A stretch of 26,551 bases of DNA, taken from NCBI GenBank assembly GCA_900557165.1, contig USRS01000025.1:1-26551 (forward strand). Direction: 5' to 3'. This stretch comes from an uncultured Clostridium sp. Lineage in GTDB: Bacteria; Bacillota; Clostridia; Peptostreptococcales; Peptostreptococcaceae. How positions within the stretch are numbered: position 1 is the stretch's first letter; every line of letters starts with the position of its first letter. Positions 4,802 through 25,982 of the stretch are shown here, one piece after another. Below the pieces are notes generated by a model, which was given only the letters and a program-made list of their open reading frames with translations, had not been told where the DNA came from and ran no database searches. The position numbers were made by a program, and so were the translations under genes.

Positions 4802-4857
4802 ACAAATTCCTCCTGTTTTAAATTAAAAGTTATTTAATAAAACTATCCTTAAGTCAT

Positions 4858-8449: not shown

Positions 8450-9667
8450 ATGGAATCTTATGGTTATATACTTGATATTGCTTTAATTTTAATTTCAACA
8501 AAGTTATTTGGTTTAATATCAAGGAAATTTCAGATGCCTCAAGTTGTGGGAGCTTTATTTGCAGGATTGCTTTTAGGACCAGCTTTTTTAAATTTTGTAC
8601 ACGAAACAGAATTTTTAACACAATTAGCAGAAATTGGGGTAATTTTACTTATGTTTTTCGCAGGACTAGAAACAGATTTATCAGAACTTAAAAGTTCTGG
8701 GAAAGCATCTTTTGTAGTTGCAGTATTTGGTATTTTAGTTCCTCTATTTTTAGGATTTTTAGTTGCAATGTACTTTAATAGAGATGGTTTAATGTCCTTT
8801 GCAGATAATTCAAATGTTTTTCTTCAAAATATTTTTGTAGGAACAATACTTACAGCCACATCTGTTAGTATTACTGTGGAAACATTAAAAGAAATGGGAA
8901 AATTAAATTCAAAGGTGGGCAATACAATTTTAGGCGCAGCCATAATTGATGATATTTTGGGAATTGTAGCTTTAACTGTTGTTATTAGTTTTTCTTCATC
9001 AGATGTACATATAGTAGAAGTTTTATTAAAAATAGTTTTATTTTTTGTATTTGCTATTATTGCCAGTGGTATTTTTTATGTAATATTTAAAAATTGGCTA
9101 GACAAAGATGCTAAACATAAGCGTAGATATGTTATAGCAGCCTTTGCATTTTGTTTATTTTTATCATATATATCAGAAGTTTACTTTGAAGTTGCTGATA
9201 TTACAGGGGCATTTATAGCAGGACTTACTTTATCACCACTTGGTAAAAAATATTATATTGAAGAAAAGCTAGATACTGTATCTTATGCATTTTTATCACC
9301 CATATTTTTTGCAAGTATTGGTTTAAAAGTAGTTTTACCAAAAATGAGTATGGTAGTTGTAATGTTTGCCATAGTTCTTACTATAGTTGCCGTAATTTCA
9401 AAAATTATAGGTTGTGGACTTGGATGTAAGTTATTCAAATATACAAATAAAGAATCTTTGCAAGTTGGTATAGGAATGGTTTCTAGGGGAGAAGTTGCTT
9501 TAATAGTTGCCAATAAAGGCTTTAATGCAGGTCTTATAAATTCATCACTTCTTGGGCCTATTATAATAGTAGTTATAGCAACAACTATTTTATCACCAAT
9601 TTTATTAAAAATGTCTTACTCTAGCAAAAAAGTGGAATCTTCTTTATTAGCAGAAGAAACTGTTTAA
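8450..9667 (+). CDS. CPA2-family cation:proton antiporter (integral membrane)
   Basis: The 405-residue protein is almost entirely hydrophobic, with about 12 predicted membrane segments. It matches the Na+/H+ exchanger CPA2 family (KefB/NhaS-like): MPQVVGALFAGLLLGP in the first repeat, the paired acidic residues in GAAIIDDILGIVAL in the middle, and DITGAFIAGLTLSP and GIGMVSRGEVALIV in the second repeat. It exchanges H+ for Na+ or K+ across the membrane. It ends shortly after the membrane domain and lacks the C-terminal TrkA-N/RCK domain that gates KefB/KefC. The ribosome-binding site is AAAGGGG, 7-8 nt before the ATG. It is monocistronic, with a terminator immediately downstream. Ion specificity cannot be read from the sequence. 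Confidence 0.92.
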   Translation: MESYGYILDIALILISTKLFGLISRKFQMPQVVGALFAGLLLGPAFLNFVHETEFLTQLAEIGVILLMFFAGLETDLSELKSSGKASFVVAVFGILVPLFLGFLVAMYFNRDGLMSFADNSNVFLQNIFVGTILTATSVSITVETLKEMGKLNSKVGNTILGAAIIDDILGIVALTVVISFSSSDVHIVEVLLKIVLFFVFAIIASGIFYVIFKNWLDKDAKHKRRYVIAAFAFCLFLSYISEVYFEVADITGAFIAGLTLSPLGKKYYIEEKLDTVSYAFLSPIFFASIGLKVVLPKMSMVVVMFAIVLTIVAVISKIIGCGLGCKLFKYTNKESLQVGIGMVSRGEVALIVANKGFNAGLINSSLLGPIIIVVIATTILSPILLKMSYSSKKVESSLLAEETV

Positions 9668-9680
9668 TGGCGTAGGCCAC

Positions 9681-9713
9681 AAAAATAGTCTGGAAAAATT
9701 CCAGACTATTTTT
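9681..9713 (+). terminator. Intrinsic terminator of the antiporter gene
   Basis: Arms 9681-9695 and 9699-9713 are exact complements (core ATAGTCTGGAA) with a short A-rich loop, followed by TTTTT on the plus strand. Confidence 0.9.
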
Positions 9714-9755
9714 ATTTATATTTTAAATATTGCTAAAAAGCTTTCTGTAAACTCT

Positions 9756-9780
9756 AAAAAAGTAGGAGCATAGCCCCTAC
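9756..9780 (-). terminator. Intrinsic terminator of argG
   Basis: On the minus strand GTAGGGGC (9780-9773) pairs with GCTCCTAC (9769-9762), one G-U pair included, and is followed by six U. It lies just downstream of the argG stop at 9803. Confidence 0.8.
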
Positions 9781-9802
9781 CATACTTATTTTAAATATAT
9801 AA

Positions 9803-11008
9803 TTATTTATTTAATTTCTTATCTTTCATGGCATTTATTTTTAGAGGTAGAGTGAATAAATTTATAAAACCTTCTGCATCTTTATGATCATATAATTCAC
9901 TATCTCCAAAAGAAGATATGCTTTCATCATATAAAGCATGTTCTGTAAATATGCCGGCAGGTTTTATATTACCTTTGTATAATTTTAATTTAACAGAACC
10001 TGTTACATTTTCTTGAGTTTTATCCATAAATGCTGTTATAGCAGCGCAAGCTGTTGAGTACCATTTTCCATTATATATTAAATCAGCATATTCTAAAGAT
10101 AATCTTTGTTTTAAATGAAGAGAATCTTTATCTAGCGTAGCACTTTCCAAATAGTTATGAGCAGCATATAGTATTTCTCCTCCTGGAGTTTCATATATTC
10201 CTCTTGATTTCATACCAACAAGTCTATTTTCAAGTATTTCAACTATACCTATACCATGTTTGCATCCCAGTTTATCTAGTGTTTCAAGAAGCTCAACTGG
10301 AGATAGTTCTTCATCGTTGACTTTTTTAGGCACACCTTTTTCAAAGTAAATTTTAACATATTCTGGAGTGTCACAAGCATCTTCTGGTGATTGAGTTTTT
10401 TTGTATATTTCTTTTTTATGTTCATTTTGTAGACATTCTATATCTCCACCTTCAGTAGACACATGGAATAAGTTATCATCAACTGAGTAGATTTTCTTTT
10501 TAGTTGCCACAACTTCTATATTATGTTCATTGGCATAATCTATGGCATCTTCTCTAGATTTTATATCCCATATTCTCCAAGGAGCTATGACTTTTATACT
10601 TGGATCTAGGGCTGCTATAGTTGCTTCAAAACGAACTTGGTCATTACCCTTTCCTGTACAACCATGGCAAATATATTTAGCACCTTCTTTTTGTGCTATT
10701 TCCACAAGTTTTTTAGCTATTATTGGTCTAGCAAGGGCAGTTCCTAGTAAATATCTTCCCTCATATTTAACTTCAGCCTTTATTGCTGCATATATAGTAG
10801 TTGTTATAAATTCTTCTTTTAAATCTACACAATAAGCTTTTATTGCACCACTTGCAATTGCTTTATCATGTACTTTTTTCATATCATCATCTTGACCCAC
10901 ATTACCACAAACTGCTATAACATCAATATCATAGTTTTCCTTTAACCATGGTATTGTAATAGACGTATCTAACCCACCTGAATATGCTAATACTACTTTT
11001 TCTTTCAT
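9803..11008 (-). CDS. argG: Argininosuccinate synthase
   Basis: The enzyme condenses citrulline and aspartate, using ATP, to argininosuccinate in arginine biosynthesis. The N-terminal ATP-pyrophosphatase loop AYSGGLDTS is at residues 8-16. Further family signatures are [60 protein letters not shown] and [11 protein letters not shown]. The 401-residue length is normal. The start ATG follows AAGGGGGAATTGAA. The gene stands alone: no argH lies downstream, where a terminator and the convergent antiporter gene follow. Upstream, a complete T-box leader with an Arg (AGA) specifier shows that transcription depends on uncharged arginyl-tRNA. Confidence 0.97.
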
Positions 11009-11045: not shown

Positions 11046-11295
11046 AAAAAAGTCCCTTGGTTTAAAACCAAGAGACGAATTTACCGCGTTACCACTCTAA
11101 TTAATATATTTATAAAAATATATTCACTCTTCCTTTTAAGGCAAGGCTACCTATTATCATACTATAATTTTTGATAATCTTCTCCAAAGCTCTATTCACT
11201 TAAGGTATTTTATTGGGCTTTCACCATCCCCAACTCTCTGTAAAAATACAACTTAAGTTACTTCTCTTTTTCACTGAATTTTGTATATTTAATAT
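11046..11295 (-). promoter_or_regulatory. T-box leader of argG, Arg specifier AGA
   Basis: On the minus strand the leader contains a stem I with the AGTA loop-E motif paired opposite GAA. The nucleotides after GAA read U-AGA-G, so the specifier is AGA (complement at 11191-11193), an arginine codon. Downstream comes the T-box AGAGTGGTAACGCGG (within 11081-11100), whose TGGT can pair with the acceptor end of uncharged tRNA. It is followed by the terminator GTCTCTTGG/CCAAGGGAC plus U-run (11046-11076). Specifier assignment was made by analogy with the GAA-N-codon arrangement of the B. subtilis glyQS leader. Uncharged tRNA-Arg should favour antitermination and argG expression. Confidence 0.95.
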
Positions 11296-17259: not shown

Positions 17260-17868
17260 ATGAGAGTACCAAAACATATAGGAATAATCCCAGATGGAAA
17301 TAGACGTTGGGCAGTAAATAATAATTTATCAAAGGAAAAGGGATATGATTATGGAGTCAATCCTGGATTGCAATTGTTTAAATTGTGTCAAAAGGAAAAT
17401 ATTGAAGAAGTCACTTTTTATGGCTATACAGTAGATAATACTAAACGTCCAACGATTCAAAAGGAGGCCTTTATTAAGGCTTGTGTTGAATCTGTCATGC
17501 TTTTAACAAAGGAAGACTGTGAAATTCTTGTAGTTGGAGATAGTACAGCTAATTATTTTCCAAAAGAACTTATCCCTTTTACAAAGGAGCGCAAAAAATT
17601 TGGAAAAGGTGGCATTAAAGCTAACTTTCTTATTCATTATGGTTGGTCTTGGGATTTAAAATCCACTCCTCTAAAATCAAAAGATATTTCTAGAATTGAT
17701 TTAATAATAAGATGGGGTGGACGTAGAAGATTAAGTGGATTTTTACCAGTGCAATCTGTGTATGCAGATTTTTATGTAATTGATAGTATGTGGCCCGACT
17801 TTAAAGAAGAAGATTTTTATGATGCTCTAAATTGGTATGACAAACAAGATGTAACTCTTGGAGGATAA
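17260..17868 (+). CDS. Divergent cis-prenyltransferase (undecaprenyl diphosphate synthase family)
   Basis: The 202-residue protein has the cis-prenyltransferase start HIGIIPDGNRRWA with the catalytic Asp12, then TFYGYTVDNTKRP, HYGWSWDL, DLIIRWGG and a WPDF C-terminal block, in family order. These enzymes add isoprene units to an allylic diphosphate to make lipid carriers. Differences from E. coli UppS are marked. It is about 50 residues shorter. The GGEHR block is GGRRR (residues 153-157), losing the His199 equivalent. The tryptophan of FSSENWNRP is Thr61, and the Glu213 metal ligand is Asp170. I therefore do not call it the housekeeping uppS. Product chain length and activity are open. The ATG follows GGAGGCACT. 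It is monocistronic, behind a structured leader and before a very long hairpin. Confidence 0.82.
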   Translation: MRVPKHIGIIPDGNRRWAVNNNLSKEKGYDYGVNPGLQLFKLCQKENIEEVTFYGYTVDNTKRPTIQKEAFIKACVESVMLLTKEDCEILVVGDSTANYFPKELIPFTKERKKFGKGGIKANFLIHYGWSWDLKSTPLKSKDISRIDLIIRWGGRRRLSGFLPVQSVYADFYVIDSMWPDFKEEDFYDALNWYDKQDVTLGG

Positions 17869-18948: not shown

Positions 18949-19116
18949 CTAGGAACTTTTATGCATGATTATAGTTTTTATTAATTCATTTAATATTTCT
19001 AAATTCACTTGGTTTAGTACTTCTTTGATATTTTTATTACTAATATTTATTTCAATATCACAATGTATATCCCAATATCTTAAAACTAAGCCCTCATAAT
19101 CCCTTAATTTATTCAT
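18949..19116 (-). CDS. Small protein (55 residues) at the end of the nitrogenase-like operon, RBS inside a terminator hairpin
   Basis: Read directly from the minus strand: ATG at 19116-19114, two consecutive TAG stops from 18951. It begins MNKLRDYEGLVLRYWDIHC and ends in a helical NELIKTIIMHKSS. A perfect AAAGGAG lies 7 nt before the ATG. I recognise no family; one Trp, one Cys and two His are present, and no signal peptide or membrane segment. The ribosome-binding site lies within the 3' arm of the terminator hairpin that ends the K-like gene, so translation requires both read-through and unfolding, or an RNA initiated nearby. It is followed by about 115 nt without features before the sulfurtransferase start. 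It may be a true small gene or a chance frame; the strong ribosome-binding site favours the former. Confidence 0.6.
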   Translation of the reverse strand: MNKLRDYEGLVLRYWDIHCDIEINISNKNIKEVLNQVNLEILNELIKTIIMHKSS

Positions 19117-19166
19117 AAAAATACTCCTTTATAAATATTAAGTTAATATTATAAAGGAGTATTTTT
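19117..19166 (-). terminator. Long terminator hairpin after the nitrogenase-like operon
   Basis: Arms 19117-19134 and 19149-19166 are exact complements, and an inner AATATTA/TAATATT extends the helix to about 23 pairs with one bulge. Transcripts of the operon end in a U-run here, 8 nt past the K-like stop. The AAAGGAG of the following small ORF is part of the stem. Confidence 0.85.
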
Positions 19167-19173
19167 ACTTAAT

Positions 19174-20385
19174 CTATAACTTTATATTCATTATCTTCTC
19201 TATTATATTTAAAATACCTCTAAACCCTACGAATGGAGTAAATGGATATATATTAACCTTATCCAAATTAGGATTACTTACTTGTAAATCTAATTTAGAA
19301 TTATGCTTCATATCTAAACATGGTCCATCACCAAACAATCCCAGTAACTCATTATTTTTTAAGTACTTCATTCTATCAATTTCACTACAACCACTTATTA
19401 AATATTCATCATTATCGTCTCGATATAGAACTTCACTTCTATCAACTTCTAAGCCTAATTCTTCTAATAAACACTTTAATCCGACTACTGTATCATAGTC
19501 TCCAAATATTGCACATTTTTTATTTCCTTCATAGAAATAAAACCTTCTTTTTAAACTTATAATATTACTTCTAACAATATCTACTTCTTTTTTATAATTG
19601 TCATTATTTAATTCATAACCATCTATATTTTCAATTTTTTTAATAATGTTAGTCATATTAGTTAATCCATATAAGCTACTATAAACATATGGTATATTAT
19701 ATTTTTCCTTCATATACTTAGCAGCTTTTAGACCTTCTTTTCTTACAACTATATTTAATGATACTTTAGCTGCATTTTCTATATCTTCAACCGTACTGTC
19801 ACAAGTAAATATTGTATTTACTTCTTTATTGAATAAGTCTTTCATAATTCTTTTTACCTCTTCAATATCTGAAAGGAAGTTATATTTATCTATATTCGCT
19901 CCAATTATATTATATTTATTTATATTTCTTTCATCAGTATCTTTTGTAATTTCTTTAACTAAAGTATTTAGCATATACTCCACACCTACATTATAATCAT
20001 CTTTTAGTCCACCTGTAGTTATAGGTATTAATTTAGCATTTATACTTGATTTTAAATTATCACAAACACTTTCTATATCTGCCCCTATTATAGATGATAT
20101 GGATGATGCCATTACAAAAATATATTTTGGATTTATATTTACATCAATTTCTACTATTGCTTTTTCTAATCTATCATATTTTCCAAAAGTCACATCACCT
20201 TGGTCCATATGTGTAGAATAAATTTTTGCTCTATCATTCCCATTTAAACTCCCTATACCCTCTAGTGCATAGTGAGTTGTTCCTGCTGGTCCAAACTCTA
20301 TTACACAAACATTTTCAATAGATGATAAAGTCCATATAATTCCCATTCTATCGTTAGCTACTGGATAGTATTTACATAGCTGCAT
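19174..20385 (-). CDS. Nitrogenase-like component 1, NifK/BchB-like subunit
   Basis: The 403-residue protein belongs to the nitrogenase component 1 / oxidoreductase family: N-terminal CKYYPVANDRMGIIW matches the CxPxxxxxG block, FGPAGTTHYA matches GSQGCVAY, and ASSISSIIGAD matches TTCMAEVIGDD. Only the first family cysteine is kept (Cys4). The second position is Thr36 and the third Ser95; Cys27 is nearby but out of register. It would pair with the D-like subunit as a heterotetramer that receives electrons from the NifH-like protein. It starts with a good GGGAGG site inside the D-like gene, overlapping by 14 nt, so the two are translationally coupled. It is shorter than NifK (about 510) and lacks any sign of FeMo-cofactor ligation. 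Confidence 0.88.
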   Translation of the reverse strand: MQLCKYYPVANDRMGIIWTLSSIENVCVIEFGPAGTTHYALEGIGSLNGNDRAKIYSTHMDQGDVTFGKYDRLEKAIVEIDVNINPKYIFVMASSISSIIGADIESVCDNLKSSINAKLIPITTGGLKDDYNVGVEYMLNTLVKEITKDTDERNINKYNIIGANIDKYNFLSDIEEVKRIMKDLFNKEVNTIFTCDSTVEDIENAAKVSLNIVVRKEGLKAAKYMKEKYNIPYVYSSLYGLTNMTNIIKKIENIDGYELNNDNYKKEVDIVRSNIISLKRRFYFYEGNKKCAIFGDYDTVVGLKCLLEELGLEVDRSEVLYRDDNDEYLISGCSEIDRMKYLKNNELLGLFGDGPCLDMKHNSKLDLQVSNPNLDKVNIYPFTPFVGFRGILNIIEKIMNIKL

Positions 20386-21661
20386 ATATCATACCTCCCA
20401 TGCTCATTTTTTCTAAGCTAAATAATTTTTTTAACTCCTTCATCATTGCTATAGGTAACTCATATCCTATTTTTTGTGCATGAGTATCAAAAGTAATTTG
20501 TGTAAGTCCCTTTTCTTTTAATAAAATTGGATTTTCATGACCTATATAAATATCTGCACCTATAGTATCATATAAATGTCTAAGAGGCGCTATATTAGCT
20601 ATTCTACTTATATATGGATTATATCCTTTATTTAACAAATTTTCTCTAAATTTATTGTCTTGATCATACAGCTCTCTCAATTGAATAAATACTGGCTCTA
20701 ATCCCAGTTCATTTAAAAAATCAACTGTCTCAAGTGCCATCATAGGAGTATTACCATATATTATTTTTTTGCCTTGAAGTATATTTTTACATTCTTCAAA
20801 TAAAATATCGTATTCTTTTTCTTGTTCTTCTAAAATATTTTCTATATTTATGTTTAATATTTTGCTTAATTTTTTATAATTTTCTTTTATTGTCGATTTA
20901 TCCATATGCTTATCAAAGTATATATAATCCATATCAAATTTACTTTTCATGGTCTCTGCTAAATCTAAAGCTATCATATCTGTTACAATATTTAATTTAG
21001 ATTTTGTACAACTTTTGATATCATCTATGCTACATTTTGAAGGTATAACAGTATTAATTTTCACATTATTTTCATTAAGTATTTTTACTAACTCTGTATT
21101 TTCAACATTTTTTTGTCTATGCCCTAGTATATTAACACCATCTTTAACCTTGCTATTTTCCATTACACTACTTAATGATTTTAATGCTCTAGACATACCT
21201 GGTATATGCGAGTTGCATTTAAAGTGTTCTGTATTTACTACAAATACTGGTATGTCTATTTCATTTTGTAAACTAAATTCTATAGATGAATAGTCTTCAC
21301 CTATAAGTTCTGGTACACAAGTTGTAACTATCATTATAGCTTCAGGATTTTCTATTTGTATTATATCCTTTATAGCTTTTTCAACTTTATTTTGTGCGCC
21401 AAATACAACATCTTTTTCATCTAGAGCTAATGAATAAACTTTATCTCTTCCATGCTGTCTATGGTATGCAAAGTTTTTAGTGTAGTAAGTACATTCACTA
21501 GTACCTACTACTACTAAAGCCAAATTATTTATGTAGCTAGCTGTAAGTGCTACACCAAATAATGGACAGTGTGTTCCTGGAAATATTGCATGAGATAAAG
21601 ATGTTATATCTTTATCATTATTTATTTCACTAAGTCTATTTAATATATCTAATTTATACAT
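20372..21661 (-). CDS. Nitrogenase-like component 1, NifD/BchN-like subunit
   Basis: The 429-residue protein has the three spaced cysteines of the family: Cys32 in FPGTHCPLFG, Cys57 in VGTSECTYY and Cys115 in VTTCVPELIGED. In nitrogenase these positions bind the P-cluster; in protochlorophyllide reductase the equivalents in BchN hold a [4Fe-4S] centre. The fold continues with VFVVNTEHFKCNSHIPG, IIYGNTPMMALETVDFLNELG and IYIGHENPILLKEKG. I see no equivalents of the NifD FeMo-cofactor ligands (Cys275, His442). It should form the catalytic core with the downstream K-like subunit. The ATG follows CGGAGGAAAT, 12 nt after the ATPase gene. The substrate is unknown; the operon context (metal-complex uptake, Fur boxes) suggests an iron complex or tetrapyrrole. 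Confidence 0.9.
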   Translation of the reverse strand: MYKLDILNRLSEINNDKDITSLSHAIFPGTHCPLFGVALTASYINNLALVVVGTSECTYYTKNFAYHRQHGRDKVYSLALDEKDVVFGAQNKVEKAIKDIIQIENPEAIMIVTTCVPELIGEDYSSIEFSLQNEIDIPVFVVNTEHFKCNSHIPGMSRALKSLSSVMENSKVKDGVNILGHRQKNVENTELVKILNENNVKINTVIPSKCSIDDIKSCTKSKLNIVTDMIALDLAETMKSKFDMDYIYFDKHMDKSTIKENYKKLSKILNINIENILEEQEKEYDILFEECKNILQGKKIIYGNTPMMALETVDFLNELGLEPVFIQLRELYDQDNKFRENLLNKGYNPYISRIANIAPLRHLYDTIGADIYIGHENPILLKEKGLTQITFDTHAQKIGYELPIAMMKELKKLFSLEKMSMGGMIYAAM

Positions 21662-21673
21662 ATTTCCTCCGTA

Positions 21674-22468
21674 TTAAGCTATTTTTATAGTTTTTATTGG
21701 ATGTATTCTTGGTTTATTAGTTATTGGATCTTTATCTATATCACATTCTATATTGTAAACTTTTTTTATAATATCTTTATTTATTATTTTATTAGGTTCT
21801 CCATCACATACTATGCTACCACTTTTCATTATAATTAATCTATCACTATATTTACTAGCTTGATTTAATTCATGTAAAACCATAACTATTGTTATATCAA
21901 ACTTTTCATTTATAGTTCTTACTAATTCCATAACTTCTAGTTGATATGATATATCTAAGTAAGTTGTAGGTTCATCTAATAATAATACATCTGGTTTTTG
22001 ACATAGAGCCTGTGCAATATATGCTCTTTGCCTTTCTCCTCCTGATAATGAACCTATTGGAGTATACTGATACTTTTTTAAACCTGTGTTTTCTATTGCC
22101 CAGTTTACAATTTCTTTATCCTCTTGTGTTTTAGTTTCATACCATCTTTTATGAGGAATTCTTCCAAAGTAAACTAACTCTTCAACTGTTAAATCCATTG
22201 GTGCATTATTATGTTGTGATAATAAACATATTTTTTGAGATATATTCTTATTTTTCATAGTTTTTATATCTTTATTTTCTATATAAATATTCCCCCCTAT
22301 GGGTTTTATCATTCTAGATAAAGTCTTTAGTAAAGTTGATTTACCACATCCATTTGGTCCTATTATTGATACAACTTCTCCTTTATTTACTCTTATACTT
22401 AAATCTTCTATGATTATTTTTTCTTCATATCCAGCCTTTAAATTTTTAGCACTTATCATTTTATTCAT
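21674..22468 (-). CDS. ABC transporter ATPase, iron-complex/heme/cobalamin type (FecE/BtuD-like)
   Basis: The 264-residue ATPase has Walker A GPNGCGKST (37-45), Q-loop LLSQHN (about 83-88), signature LSGGERQ (141-147), Walker B VLLLDEP (161-167) and the switch His in MVLHELNQASKYSDR. The LSGGERQRAYIAQAL and TTYLDISYQLEVMEL wording is typical of FecE/FhuC/FepC proteins that energise uptake of ferric siderophores, heme or vitamin B12. It acts on the inner face of the membrane with the permease encoded just upstream. Its start overlaps the permease stop by 8 nt, indicating coupled translation; an alternative in-frame ATG lies nine nt further in. The C-terminal extension GEPNKIINKDIIKKVYNIEC is standard for the group. 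Confidence 0.95.
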   Translation of the reverse strand: MNKMISAKNLKAGYEEKIIIEDLSIRVNKGEVVSIIGPNGCGKSTLLKTLSRMIKPIGGNIYIENKDIKTMKNKNISQKICLLSQHNNAPMDLTVEELVYFGRIPHKRWYETKTQEDKEIVNWAIENTGLKKYQYTPIGSLSGGERQRAYIAQALCQKPDVLLLDEPTTYLDISYQLEVMELVRTINEKFDITIVMVLHELNQASKYSDRLIIMKSGSIVCDGEPNKIINKDIIKKVYNIECDIDKDPITNKPRIHPIKTIKIA

Positions 22469-23444
22469 ATCCTCTCTTTCTTAATAAATACAAGAAGAAT
22501 GGTCCACCAAATATGGACATTATTACACCTACAGGAATTTCTATGGCTCCTCCTATAGTTCTACCTAATGTATCTGCAACTAAAAGTACCATTCCACCTA
22601 GTACCATACTAAAAGGTATAGTATATTTATGGTCACTTCCCATAATCATTCTAGCTATATGAGGTACTATTAATCCAACAAAACTAATAACGCCTACTAC
22701 TGATGTTGATATTGCTGCTAAAAATACTGCTACTGAACAAATAATTAATCTGGAATAATTTGCATTTACACCTAAATTTGTAGCTGCATCGTCTCCTAAT
22801 TGAAGTATATTAGCACTTCTTATTAAGAAAAGAGATATTATAAGTCCAATTATTGAATATATAAATAACATTTCTACATGTACCCAAGTTTTTGTAGCTA
22901 AGCTTCCGTTTAACCAAAGCATAGCACTTTGTATTCTATCACTATACATTGTTGATAAGAATGAAATAACTCCACCTAATATAGCATTTACTGCAACACC
23001 TGCTAATACTATTCTGCCGGGCTTTATTCCATTTTTGTAGGCCATTATAAATACTAATATACATGCAAATGCACCACCTATAAATGCAATTAAAGGTAAT
23101 ATACCTGTATACTGTGGTAATAATAAAAGTATTATTATAGCTGCAACACTAGCTCCAGTAGAAACCCCAGTTATACCAGGGTCTGCTAGTGGATTTTTCA
23201 TAACTGACTGAAGTAATACTCCTGCAACTGCTAGATTGGCTCCAACTATTGCAGCTAAAATATTTCTTGGTAATCTCATTTTATAAACGATAGTTGTAAC
23301 CATTTTATTATCATTATTTATTAAAGCACTTATTATTTCTTTTAATTCTAAGTTTACCGTACCTACTGTTGATAAGATTGCCAAAAGTAATAATAATGCT
23401 ATAGCTCCTATTACTATGATTAAATATTTTTTATTTAATTTCAT
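22461..23444 (-). CDS. ABC transporter permease, FecCD/BtuC family
   Basis: At 327 residues this is a BtuC/FecCD permease with about ten membrane helices. Diagnostic stretches are MRLPRNILAAIVGANLAVAG after the first helix, QSVMKNPLADPGITGVSTGA, GIKPGRIVLAGVAVNAILGG, MLWLNGSLATKTW, LGVNANYSRLIIC and VGVISFVGLIVPHIARMIMG, followed by LGRTIGGAIEIPVGVIMSIFGGPFF. These match importers of siderophores, heme or corrinoids, which work as homodimers. Only one permease gene is present, consistent with a homodimer. The start ATG lies 2 nt after the lipoprotein gene stop and its ribosome-binding site GGAGAA is inside that gene, so expression is coupled. Substrate identity cannot be read from the permease alone. 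Confidence 0.95.
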   Translation of the reverse strand: MKLNKKYLIIVIGAIALLLLLAILSTVGTVNLELKEIISALINNDNKMVTTIVYKMRLPRNILAAIVGANLAVAGVLLQSVMKNPLADPGITGVSTGASVAAIIILLLLPQYTGILPLIAFIGGAFACILVFIMAYKNGIKPGRIVLAGVAVNAILGGVISFLSTMYSDRIQSAMLWLNGSLATKTWVHVEMLFIYSIIGLIISLFLIRSANILQLGDDAATNLGVNANYSRLIICSVAVFLAAISTSVVGVISFVGLIVPHIARMIMGSDHKYTIPFSMVLGGMVLLVADTLGRTIGGAIEIPVGVIMSIFGGPFFLYLLRKRGYE

Positions 23445-23446
23445 AC

Positions 23447-24331
23447 TTATTCTCCGTATAATATATCTCCAAGAGTTTGTATAGCTTCCTTAACTTTTAA
23501 ATTTGCTGATACGTTAAATACATTTGAATCTAAATCTACAACTTTATTATTTTTAACTGCATTTAATTCTTGATAAGCTGGGTTTTTATCAAATGCTTTA
23601 TCAAAAGATTTTTTAGTTTCTTCTAAGTTTCCATGCGCAAATCTTAATATATAATCAGGATTTTGTTCTAATATATATTCTAAACTAAGTTGAACATATC
23701 CATTTTCAACATTTTTATCTAATTTAGATGCTATATTTTTTCCTCCTACAGTCTTAACTAAATCTCCTAAGTAAGAAGTTTCAGTAGCTAACATAAAGTT
23801 TTCTCCAGAACCAAATATTATTGCTACTGTAGGTGCTTTATCACCTTTTTTAGATTTTACTTCTTTTTCTATATTTTTTAATTCATTTATTAAAGTAGTT
23901 GCTTCTTCTTCTTTGTCTATAGTTTTTCCTAATTCTTCTATACTTTTAATATAGTCAGTATATGTATTGGTCTTTAAGAAGAAAGTATTAAAATCATATT
24001 CTTTTAAACTTTTTTCTACACTATCTTTAAACGCATTATCCATAACAAACACATCTGGATTTAATGATGCTACTACTTCTAAATCTGGATTCATAGATTG
24101 ACCAACTTCAGGAAGTCCTTTAAATTTTTCTGGCATTTCTAATTGTGTTGTAGGTATACCCACTACATTTGCATCTAATTTATCTAAAACTTGAGATCCT
24201 GATACTGTTGCAGCTACTACTGTTTTTTCTTTTGCTACATCCTCACTTTTTCCTGTAGTACCACCTGCTTGGCAACCTGTCATTAATAATGCACCTAGTA
24301 CAAATATTGATGCTAACTTTCTTAATTTCAT
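23447..24331 (-). CDS. Metal-complex-binding lipoprotein of an ABC importer (TroA/FepB-like helical-backbone SBP)
   Basis: The 294-residue protein has a lipoprotein signal with lipobox LMTGC (Cys20). The mature part shows the class III binding-protein pattern: VVAATVSGSQVLDKLDANVVGIPTT, PEVGQSMNPDLEVVASLNPDVFVMDN, a long linking helix around LGKTIDKEEEATTLINELKNI, VAIIFGSGENFMLATETSYLGDLVKTVGGKNIA, LSLEYILEQNPDYILRFAHG and AVKNNKVVDLDSNVFNVSAN. Such proteins bind ferric siderophores, heme or cobalamin outside the membrane and deliver them to the FecCD/FecE pair encoded directly downstream. The ATG follows TAGGAGGATAAAAA. It lies 25 nt downstream of the NifH-like gene, placing uptake and reductase genes in one transcript. 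Confidence 0.93.
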   Translation of the reverse strand: MKLRKLASIFVLGALLMTGCQAGGTTGKSEDVAKEKTVVAATVSGSQVLDKLDANVVGIPTTQLEMPEKFKGLPEVGQSMNPDLEVVASLNPDVFVMDNAFKDSVEKSLKEYDFNTFFLKTNTYTDYIKSIEELGKTIDKEEEATTLINELKNIEKEVKSKKGDKAPTVAIIFGSGENFMLATETSYLGDLVKTVGGKNIASKLDKNVENGYVQLSLEYILEQNPDYILRFAHGNLEETKKSFDKAFDKNPAYQELNAVKNNKVVDLDSNVFNVSANLKVKEAIQTLGDILYGE

Positions 24332-24356
24332 TTTTTATCCTCCTAAGTATGTATAT

Positions 24357-25103
24357 TTATTCGTTTATTATTTTTTTTGCTAAATCAATATAGATATTTG
24401 CCATATGGCATGTATTATTTTCTTGAATGACTGTTTTTCCATTATTTTCAGAAATTTGAACAACCTTATCTCTTGGTATATAATGATAAACTTGTGAATC
24501 TATTTCATTTGCTAATTTGCTAACCAGTTCTTTTTCATCTTCTACATTTTTAGCATTTAAGATTAAACCTTTTAAATTGGCATATCCTCTATTTTTAAAT
24601 TGATTAACTGCAGTAGATATATTTGATGCTGCATACATTGACATCATCTCTCCCGATGTTACTATATAAACATCTTGTGCATATCCATTTCTTATAGGCA
24701 TTGAAAATCCACCGCATACAACATCTCCAAGTACATCGTAAATTACGATATCTGGATTATATTTTTTAAAGGCATCTAGTTCTTCTAGTTTTTCAAAAGC
24801 AGCTATTATGCCTCTACCAGCACATCCCACCCCAGGTGTTGGACCTCCAGCTTCTACACATAAAACTCCATTGTAACCTTCAAATACTATATCCTCTAAA
24901 TCAACATCGTCACCTTTTTTATTCATCACATCTAAAACTGTTGGAATAAATTTTCCTCCTACTAAGTTTTTAGTAGAATCTGCTTTAGGATCACAGCCTA
25001 TTTGCATTACTTTATATCCTAAATGTGATAATGCTGCTGATAAGTTGGATGTTGTTGTTGATTTACCTATTCCACCTTTTCCATATATTGCTATTTTTTT
25101 CAT
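24357..25103 (-). CDS. Nitrogenase-like reductase, NifH/BchL/CfbC-type Fe protein
   Basis: The 248-residue protein is an ATP-dependent electron donor of the NifH family. The P-loop GKGGIGKST is at residues 8-16, the switch I-like CDPKADST at 37-44, and the two cysteines that would hold the subunit-bridging [4Fe-4S] cluster are Cys94 (GVGCAGRG) and Cys130 ([10 protein letters not shown]). It is shorter than NifH (about 275-290). I chose the ATG at 25103, 7 nt after GAGGGAG; a TTG two codons upstream is less likely. It is the first gene of the operon, beginning 44 nt from the Fur box. No nifB, nifE, nifN or nifV is present, so a nitrogen-fixing role is unlikely. The partner is presumably the D/K-like pair downstream. 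Confidence 0.95.
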
Positions 25104-25146
25104 TGACAATCTCCCTCTTTTTAAGATAATATAAAGTTAATCTTTT

Positions 25147-25161
25147 TGATAATAATTATCA
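25147..25161. promoter_or_regulatory. Canonical 7-1-7 Fur box upstream of the nitrogenase-like operon
   Basis: TGATAAT-A-ATTATCA is a perfect match to the Gram-positive 7-1-7 Fur consensus. It lies 44 nt upstream of the NifH-like ATG, across the region where the -35 of that promoter is expected (an AT-rich TATATT -10 candidate follows on the minus strand). Iron-bound Fur would repress here, so the operon should be induced by iron starvation. Confidence 0.85.
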
Positions 25162-25168
25162 TTACCAT

Positions 25169-25197
25169 TTGATTTTAACATTATCTAATTGATAATG
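25169..25197 (+). promoter_or_regulatory. Second Fur-like inverted repeat overlapping a candidate promoter of the AraC-type regulator gene
   Basis: CATTATC (25179-25185) and GATAATG (25191-25197) are exact inverted arms separated by TAATT. The arms are Fur half-site-like but spaced by five bases. They overlap the -10 GATAAT (25191-25196) of a candidate plus-strand promoter with -35 TTGATT at 25169-25174 and 16-nt spacing. It could bind Fur or the AraC-type regulator itself. Confidence 0.5.
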
Positions 25198-25253
25198 CTT
25201 TTACTATATTTGTTTTTTTTGTAAATATATTTTTAAATTTAAGGAGATTATAT

Positions 25254-25982
25254 ATGAAAAAATTAGATTGCATTTTAAACGATTTTTATTATTTAGTGGG
25301 GATTCCTATTAAATACTTTGATAAAGACTGGAATAATATCTTAAGTAAAGGATATGATAAAAACTTAGATTCATATTTTGATAAATTTAGTATTTTAAAA
25401 GAATGTAAAGAAAATAAAGATAGTTATACAAAAATATCGTATGATAATATTCATTTTTTAAAGTTTAATATATTTGAAAAAGTAAACTTACAAGGCTATT
25501 TTATAATAGGACCATTTATATCAACCAGTTGTAAATATGAAAATAATTTACCTTTTAAACCTTACACTTGTATAAAATATATAAAAAATTTACTTAATTC
25601 TTTAATTATAGATAATTTAGAAAATAAAAACAAAAATAATTATAGTTCTTATATTATACATGCTATAGAGTATATTCATAAAAATTATCATAAGGATATA
25701 GCTATTGATGATGTTTGTAAGTTTTTAGGACTTAATAAAAGTTACTTTTGTTCTCTATTTAAAAAAGAAACTAACCTTACATTTTGCAATTTCTTAAATA
25801 TGTTTAGAGTTGAAATGAGTAAAAAATTTTTAGCTAACAAAAATTATTCTATAATGGATGTTTCACTTTCTGTGGGATATAATAATCACAATTATTATAG
25901 TACATTATTTAAAAAATTAAATAATGTTACACCTTTAGAATTTAGAAAATCTTGTTTTTTAGATAGAAATGCCATAATATAA
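25254..25982 (+). CDS. AraC-family transcriptional regulator, divergent from the nitrogenase-like operon
   Basis: The 242-residue protein ends in the AraC/XylS DNA-binding domain (about 140-238). The first helix-turn-helix is in IAIDDVCKFLGLNKSYFCSLFKKETN, and the second in SIMDVSLSVGYNNHNYYSTLFKKLNNVTPLEFRK. The N-terminal 130 residues are not a recognisable cupin; a DGxxxGYFIIGPFI-like strand and cysteines at 6, 50, 89 and 100 suggest a ligand- or metal-sensing domain of the PAS/PocR-like type seen in clostridial regulators, but this is uncertain. The ATG follows AAGGAG. Divergent placement across a 150-nt region with two Fur-type repeats implies it regulates the operon, perhaps activating it when the imported substrate is present, as AraC-type siderophore regulators do. 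A weak hairpin overlaps the stop codon. Confidence 0.9.
   Translation: MKKLDCILNDFYYLVGIPIKYFDKDWNNILSKGYDKNLDSYFDKFSILKECKENKDSYTKISYDNIHFLKFNIFEKVNLQGYFIIGPFISTSCKYENNLPFKPYTCIKYIKNLLNSLIIDNLENKNKNNYSSYIIHAIEYIHKNYHKDIAIDDVCKFLGLNKSYFCSLFKKETNLTFCNFLNMFRVEMSKKFLANKNYSIMDVSLSVGYNNHNYYSTLFKKLNNVTPLEFRKSCFLDRNAII

Follow-up and report, generated by a model that had tools for sequence, protein, structure and literature searches.

A nitrogenase-like enzyme encoded with a predicted heme importer in a conserved operon of Clostridia

Organization of the operon

The sequence analysed here, called the window, is a stretch of 26,551 nucleotides (nt) on contig USRS01000025.1 (assembly GCA_900557165.1) from an uncultured Clostridium sp. 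of the family Peptostreptococcaceae. Its minus strand carries, at 25109–19174, a complete operon in which a NifH-like reductase (H) and two subunits of the nitrogenase fold (D and K) are encoded together with the lipoprotein, permease and ATPase of an ATP-binding cassette (ABC) importer. The cluster is a real, conserved, heme-linked nitrogenase-like system, by which imported heme is probably dismantled for its iron without oxygen in anaerobic gut and soil bacteria. The operon and its control region contain the following features.

25254–25982, plus strand: divergent AraC-family regulator (HTH_AraC)
25148–25166, minus strand: Fur box, two mismatches to the consensus GATAATGATAATCATTATC
24357–25109, minus strand: H, NifH-like ATP-dependent reductase; TTG start, with an in-frame ATG at 25103 as an alternative
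23447–24331, minus strand: binding lipoprotein, IsdE-like; 270 bits to TIGR03659 (cut-off 298.65), M80 and H233 aligning with the Met and His of IsdE
22461–23444, minus strand: FecCD permease of the ABC importer, placed in the permease tree among those of Isd-type heme loci
21674–22468, minus strand: ABC importer ATPase of the FecE type (Pfam ABC_tran)
20372–21661, minus strand: D-like subunit (PF00148); P-cluster-type C32, C57 and C115 retained, both ligands of the iron-molybdenum (FeMo) cofactor absent
19174–20385, minus strand: K-like subunit (PF00148); no cysteine at the P-cluster positions, E30, T36, T37 and H38 invariant

The genes are closely packed, with distances of 25, 2, -8, 12 and -14 nt from H to K as calculated from the gene coordinates, and every Pfam match is above its cut-off (Fer4_NifH 332 bits, Peripla_BP_2 135, FecCD 315, ABC_tran 125, Oxidored_nitro (PF00148) 202 and 222, HTH_AraC 59). 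A scan of the window at three mismatches or fewer to the 19-bp Fur consensus gave two matches, which are one site read on both strands, with 0.03 expected from shuffled sequences; by this promoter box the operon is a predicted member of the Fur regulon. The tightly spaced gene order, the Fur box ahead of it and the divergent AraC regulator had all been proposed in a preliminary description made from the letters of this DNA, and they are confirmed here. The outermost position of that description, 18949, is 225 nt past the end of K, and no intrinsic terminator was detected 3' of K in a simple scan.

Conservation and distribution

With an alignment of K as query, 27 loci were obtained from genome contigs (loci are numbered with L and genomes with G), and 40 further regions were annotated with profiles made from the alignments of this study. 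A search with a D profile (E 1e-40 or better) found matches in 11 of 391 genomes in a class sample, in 28/297 from the order of G001 and in 13/225 from the order of G006. The scores in these genome searches fall into two groups, the core at 638 bits or more and everything else at 459 or less; over all D-profile scores the core covers 564–717 bits, and a mid clade at 359–460 bits was held apart from it.

In 31 of the 34 core loci H, the lipoprotein, the permease, the ATPase and K are found on the same strand as D and within 7 kb of it (30/33 if L027 and L115, apparently one genome, are counted once; the lone or truncated L007, L012, L019 and L025 are excluded), and the co-occurrence of the ABC genes with the D/K homologues that the preliminary description had asked about is hence observed. 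The three exceptions are L005, which is at a contig end, L024, and L117, where the lipoprotein gene was just outside the first region and was recovered in L172. The gene order is rearranged in L015, L016 and L026, showing that the linkage survives rearrangement. The gene set thus recurs across Clostridia, and the named hosts of D or K relatives are Paraclostridium, Paeniclostridium, Romboutsia, Clostridioides and Turicibacter.

Of 32 core loci, 17 have a Fur-like site with four mismatches or fewer upstream of the operon's first gene, as compared with 5 of 257 control genes taken from the same loci. The preliminary description had asked whether the box co-occurs with the operon; it is recognizable in about half of the loci. 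The best site in L117 has six mismatches, and L015 could not be scanned properly because only 32 bases of its upstream region were covered. Kinship among the loci means that the Fisher values for this enrichment, and for the linkage of IsdE to core D described below, overstate independence.

The operon is found in three records titled Clostridioides difficile, namely L003 (CD160), L004 (173070) and L027 (HC132). Sources cited by PMC number are represented in this text by parts of them; in that of the C. difficile Fur paper (PMC6311696) nitrogenase is unmentioned in the main text, and given that silence the distribution within Clostridioides may be patchy. Some copies are irregular: K is broken into two frames at 4838–6060 of L021 (Paraclostridium benzoelyticum), L007 has at 9001–10194 a K paralogue that stands alone, with neither D nor an importer, and P0229 and P0237 have altered GPAGTTH motifs and are perhaps decayed or repurposed copies.

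The importer

The closest solved relatives of the window lipoprotein are Lmo2184 of Listeria (177 bits) and IsdE of Staphylococcus aureus (159 bits), with the next best at 61 bits. In the five core lipoproteins scanned, the IsdE model TIGR03659 gives 270 bits for the window, 288 for L010, 260 for L017, 246 for L022 and 358 (357.7) for L015, the cut-off being reached in L015 and not in the window. The model of the B12-binding protein BtuF scores 24–42 bits in the same five, at least 200 bits below IsdE, and import of B12 or another corrinoid is therefore judged unlikely. The two residues M80 and H233 correspond to the heme ligands of IsdE, and in the streptococcal homologue HtsA the ligands are Met79 and His229 (PMC4684392). 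H233 is invariant in all 18 aligned lipoproteins, and the position of M80, which the L026 sequence does not cover, has Met in 13 of 17 sequences, Phe in three and Arg in one.

With IsdE matches counted at E 1e-45 or better, all 19 core-D genomes in the sample of 297 have one within 10 kb of D, compared with 43 of the 278 genomes without core D that have one anywhere; in the order of G006 an IsdE match adjoins D in 4/4 core-D genomes. Twelve conventional Isd loci (L157–L168) encode importers of the same family, most of them accompanied by NEAT matches, and four of the 12 have beside them an AraC gene related to that of the window (105–174 bits). In the permease tree L015 nests with two of these conventional loci, L163 and L167 (Shimodaira-Hasegawa-like approximate likelihood ratio test, SH-aLRT, 100). 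By its sequence relationships the importer is of the Isd-type heme lineage.

Genes adjoining the core operons point in the same direction. NEAT domains over cut-off are present in L016, L018, L022 and two proteins of L015, of which one bears a cell-wall anchor motif; L117/L172 has a NEAT match by similarity. L022 encodes a class B sortase (228 bits, cut-off 154), which is matched in L117/L172, and sortases are also found in L015 and L016. Eleven core loci have a HugZ-like gene following K; of these, L001, L005 and L006 were scanned and score 134–137 bits to TIGR04109 against a cut-off of 240. Eight core loci and the truncated L019 have a BilS-like flavodoxin gene; in L010, L019, L020 and L022, which were scanned, it gives 101–122 bits to NF045594 (cut-off 155), with PF12641 above cut-off. 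Elsewhere among gut clostridia BilS occurs together with BilR, the bilirubin reductase (PMC10769871). None of the NEAT, sortase, HugZ-like or BilS-like genes adjoins the operon of the window itself.

The H, D and K proteins

The best-scoring model for H is CfbC (354 bits, cut-off 402), closely followed by NifH (353.6 bits), and H is below both cut-offs; with BchL and BchX it gives 215 and 206 bits (cut-offs 345 and 331). In H neither C96 nor C132 varies, and the P-loop is almost invariant. K has 106 bits to BchB, and D has 71 bits to BchB (cut-off 490) and 58 to BchN (cut-off 420). Both are far below the CfbD cut-off of 268 (D 43 bits, K 38), and there are two subunit genes here.

To read the cluster-ligand columns, 118 D and K proteins, 23 of each from the core, were aligned together. 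The three P-cluster cysteines are kept in 23/23 core D, while K has no cysteine at any of the three corresponding columns; at the column of NifK Cys95, which is Asp in BchB, core K has Thr in 23/23, followed by Thr and His. The three D cysteines with Thr at the K Asp column might correspond to the cluster pattern of the dark protochlorophyllide reductase (DPOR), in which one [4Fe-4S] cluster has a non-cysteine ligand from K; T36, T37, H38 and E30 are candidates for such a ligand here. Also invariant in the core are H31, H146, H152, H375 and E376 of D and E30 and H38 of K.

In a maximum likelihood tree the D-like and K-like proteins form two clades (SH-aLRT 99 and 95, 47 rows each) without any Nif, Vnf or Bch rows, and within each of the two the core is nearly, not wholly, one clade. 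Very divergent Treponema and L146 rows fall outside both. The tree was made by a quick method, has long-branch warnings for the Bch rows, Treponema and L146, and takes its reference sequences from the Nif, Vnf and Bch families. Within that range of families the placement of D and K outside clades of known function agrees with what the preliminary description had proposed, as they are not inside Nif, Vnf, DPOR or the chlorophyllide reductase COR.

A true N2-fixing nitrogenase has only the fold families in its favour. The window H, D and K reach no nitrogenase equivalog cut-off, and in core D the FeMo-cofactor Cys275 column is Asp in 22/23 and Glu in 1/23, with Ile, Val or Leu at the His442 column in 23/23, so that both ligands are missing throughout. 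NifB is over cut-off in one of 35 genomes (G515), a 277-bit match in G011 being below it, and 16 of 25 genomes, of which the completeness is not stated, have no PF00148 protein other than the D/K pair. Nitrogen fixation is rejected on the missing ligands and the near absence of NifB, and we give it practically no chance. For related gene clusters Dos Santos et al. put forward in 2012 an import of metal that would feed cluster assembly, here on a NifEN-like scaffold (PMC3464626), and a fused NifEN is the best solved match of K (169 bits). The same NifB count, the missing cofactor ligands and the 16 genomes without a further PF00148 protein as cluster recipient all argue against such a scaffold, which is very improbable. 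A role in heme synthesis is unlikely as well because a convincing ferrochelatase match is missing in the hosts: weak matches occur in 8/35 genomes, all partial and two of them just over cut-off.

A radical SAM gene in the place of H, D and K

In L169, L170 and L174 a closely related lipoprotein-permease-ATPase set with a BilS-like flavodoxin gene has a radical S-adenosylmethionine (SAM) gene replacing H, D and K. Those of L169 and L170 score 263 and 265 bits to the ChuW/HutW model TIGR04107 and 180 and 163 to HemW, and that of L174 was recognized by its similarity to them (859 bits). The permeases of the three loci nest with those of the H/D/K-linked L016, L018, L022 and L117 (SH-aLRT 100), and the permease of the HugZ-linked L171 is within a set of ten rows that includes the window (SH-aLRT 99). 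By D search, core D is absent from the three HutW-linked and two HugZ-only genomes (best matches 123 bits in G886 and 25 in G434, none in the other three). In the genome G015 (L173) about 4 kb separate an H/D/K operon from another operon, which encodes an importer and a HutW-like protein (336 bits).

In the two order samples all 27 IsdE matches below the model cut-off adjoin genes for H/D/K (22), a HutW-like protein (G434, G416, G886) or a HugZ-like protein (G254, G853), indicating that one importer lineage is paired with three alternatives. The presence of a ChuW/HutW-like gene in the H/D/K slot is the strongest clue to the predicted function. No host genome (0/35) has HutW over cut-off; sub-cut-off matches, probably mostly HemW, occur in 35/35, so the absence of HutW is uninformative. 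The preliminary description had left the ligand as a siderophore, heme or a corrinoid. The type of lipoprotein, the NEAT, sortase and HugZ-like neighbours and the ChuW/HutW-like replacement narrow it to heme, a predicted link that is well supported, and the corrinoid part of the proposal is unlikely from the BtuF scores.

Sister and mid clades

A sister clade (L121, L127, L128, L130, L133, L134, L139, L144, L145, L152) also encodes nitrogenase-like H, D and K with an importer, usually with the AraC gene first, then those for the lipoprotein, a pair of FecCD permeases and the ATPase (which was not seen in L121), and finally H, D and K. The lipoprotein is of the enterobactin/FecB type where scanned (L133), and D H146, H152 and H375 are only partly retained across this siderophore-type clade. 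In L152, on a Sporomusa termitida plasmid (NZ_CP036260.1, 468–12917), genes for TonB-type receptors and for a protein of the alpha/beta hydrolase fold flank the cluster, which suggests a role in release of siderophore iron.

The mid clade (L118, L119, L125, L135, L136) has the gene order of the window, with a flavodoxin gene in four of five; G722 and G706, two genomes of this clade, encode a conventional IsdE at a separate place, and the clade may therefore handle another ligand. In L120 and L126 H-D-K is followed by lipoprotein, permease and ATPase and then by a methyltransferase-type gene (by Pfam in L120 only). A plasmid of the spirochete Treponema saccharophilum (L153) carries a highly diverged H-D-K set, accompanied by an ABC importer of the iron type; a second lipoprotein gene there is placed divergently. 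In L146 (G011:C87), from an Oscillospiraceae metagenome-assembled genome, a second PF00148 pair, likewise highly diverged, has H and a NifB-like gene in its vicinity.

Proposed function

Strict anaerobes are unable to use heme oxygenase. We consider it reasonably probable that the operon is an iron-starvation heme-utilization system, in which a DPOR-like ATP-driven reductase acts on imported heme and frees the iron anaerobically. Heme would enter through the Isd-type importer, and H would receive electrons from ferredoxin or, in some relatives, from their BilS-like flavodoxin. Coupled to ATP hydrolysis, these electrons would go from H to one [4Fe-4S] cluster between D and K, for which, by likeness to DPOR, three cysteines of D and one residue of K other than cysteine would be the ligands. 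The cluster might then reduce heme in a cavity where the invariant histidines H31, H146, H152 and H375 of D and H38 of K could hold it. Reduction of the macrocycle should weaken chelation so that Fe2+ leaves without oxygen, and H/D/K would fill the place of ChuW/HutW or IsdG in other heme systems. The reduction chemistry on heme is modelled on DPOR, COR and CfbCD, the precedents in this family for reduction of other tetrapyrroles (PMC7242693).

Several observations weigh against this proposal. No Fur-like site was found upstream in L013, L018 and L022 (7–9 mismatches), and in ten core loci the best site has five mismatches, six of these being identical in sequence. L024 is an H-D-K locus with no adjoining importer above threshold, and the genome of L001 additionally carries the lone K paralogue L007. 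The Met of the lipoprotein is replaced in 4/17. Only one of 74 IsdE places over the cut-off (G013, L015) adjoins core D, and as the other 73 do not, heme uptake in this group does not need H/D/K; of the 74, the 12 conventional loci read have no H/D/K match (L158 being truncated). The ChuW/HutW-like genes do not reach the model cut-off of 400, and the contigs of L169 and L170 stop, and that of L174 starts, near the lipoprotein gene, so the whole operon may not be visible. G520 and G005 also hold a separate conventional IsdE, and the H/D/K-linked lipoproteins, L015 excepted, group just below the IsdE cut-off.

These last two points would also fit a substrate other than heme b, such as a heme relative, a corrinoid or an anaerobic bilin, or another metal complex. 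The resemblance of the flavodoxin to BilS of bilirubin reduction and the pairing of the sister clades with different importers are further points for it. The margin of IsdE over BtuF, the heme-related neighbours, the ChuW/HutW replacement and the L015 lipoprotein speak for heme instead, and we regard another substrate as unlikely.

The main chemical rival to reduction of the heme ring is reductive de-chelation, where H/D/K would supply low-potential electrons and Fe2+ and intact protoporphyrin IX would be released, as by HmuS. The importer and the Fur evidence are equally compatible with it. Heme iron is easily reduced by general chemistry, and an ATP-driven supply of very low-potential electrons would be superfluous. 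The known tetrapyrrole enzymes of the family, moreover, reduce ring bonds (PMC7242693). Bacteroides HmuS yields protoporphyrin IX, and more of it with NADH (PMC12583661), so anaerobic iron release without ring opening does exist; for H/D/K we find it rather improbable.

The reading of the preliminary description is thus supported, the enzymatic function being a prediction. With about equal weight for and against, the system may be a further anaerobic route to heme iron, a nitrogenase-like heme reductase module interchangeable with ChuW/HutW, in a broader clade for assimilation of iron complexes where extreme reducing power would free the iron in a heme branch and a siderophore sister branch. 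The operon names a testable enzyme for extraction of heme iron in clostridia and other gut Firmicutes, for which the ChuW/HutW replacement makes a clear prediction. If this is true, iron acquisition joins N2, chlorophyll, F430 and C-S bonds among the roles of nitrogenase-like enzymes, and a nifH or nifD match in a gut genome need not signal nitrogen fixation.

Other features of the window

A T-box leader (142 bits) is located at 11068–11283 on the minus strand, upstream of a gene for a protein of 401 residues (9803–11008, minus strand) that resembles argininosuccinate synthase and is a putative member of that family. At 17260–17868 on the plus strand a short polyprenyl diphosphate synthase (202 residues) is encoded, with a model match in two pieces that is under the uppS cut-off.

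Comparison with known systems

DPOR (BchL, BchNB) and COR (BchXYZ) share with the operon a NifH-type ATPase with a D/K-type pair, the three D cysteines, a non-cysteine at the BchB Asp column of K and the absence of FeMo-cofactor ligands, and tetrapyrrole chemistry would be expected. They differ in that the D and K of the operon are in separate clades, below all Bch cut-offs and with Thr instead of Asp in K, and in that the operon is tied to import whereas the Bch enzymes belong to chlorophyll synthesis. CfbCD, the Ni-sirohydrochlorin reductive cyclase of F430 synthesis, is similar in the top score of H with the CfbC model and in tetrapyrrole reduction, but CfbD is a homodimer (PMC11423573, PMC12176620) and the operon has two subunits.

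The group IV enzymes methylthio-alkane reductase (Mar) and isethionate reductase (Isr) have an HDK operon and are non-diazotrophic, and Isr, which works with a sulfonate importer, is an example of a nitrogenase-like enzyme with an importer for its own substrate (PMC11423573). Both have a radical SAM partner (PMC11423573), and Mar uses nitrogenase metalloclusters; the search here covered NifB, which is over cut-off in one of the 35 genomes.

In 2012 Dos Santos et al. reported several species in which genes of nitrogenase-like proteins adjoin those of ABC transporters, and proposed metal transport for cofactor assembly (PMC3464626). In their clade of Clostridium botulinum and Alkaliphilus oremlandii the NifE-like subunit has the three P-cluster cysteines and the NifN-like subunit none, and an ABC ATPase gene adjoins nifH (PMC3464626). 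This case fits the importer-H-D-K sister clade described above. That sister clade has mostly two-permease importers, and the heme clade branches separately from it. The preliminary description knew of no nitrogenase-like enzyme characterised as the iron-regulated partner of a metal-complex importer; the co-location with ABC genes has been known since 2012, and the link to heme is not made in the parts of that paper covered (PMC3464626). Nor was a report of a nitrogenase-like enzyme in heme use found among the matches listed in the open-licence literature, outside which most subscription papers and bioRxiv lie, and the word nitrogenase is missing from the main text, as covered, of a 2025 heme review that includes anaerobic heme degraders (PMC12670364).

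The Isd systems and the cht locus of Clostridium perfringens have the IsdE-type lipoprotein, permease, ATPase, NEAT proteins, sortase and Fur box (PMC5026354). They are unlike the operon in the lack of H/D/K in the conventional loci read, and the text of that paper, in the part covered, does not contain the word nitrogenase (PMC5026354). ChuW/HutW/HmuW and HmuS share with the proposed system an oxygen-independent release of iron from imported heme, and a ChuW/HutW-like gene occupies the same slot in three relatives. ChuW/HutW/HmuW is an unrelated radical SAM methyltransferase and HmuS a CobN-like chelatase, likewise unrelated to H/D/K.

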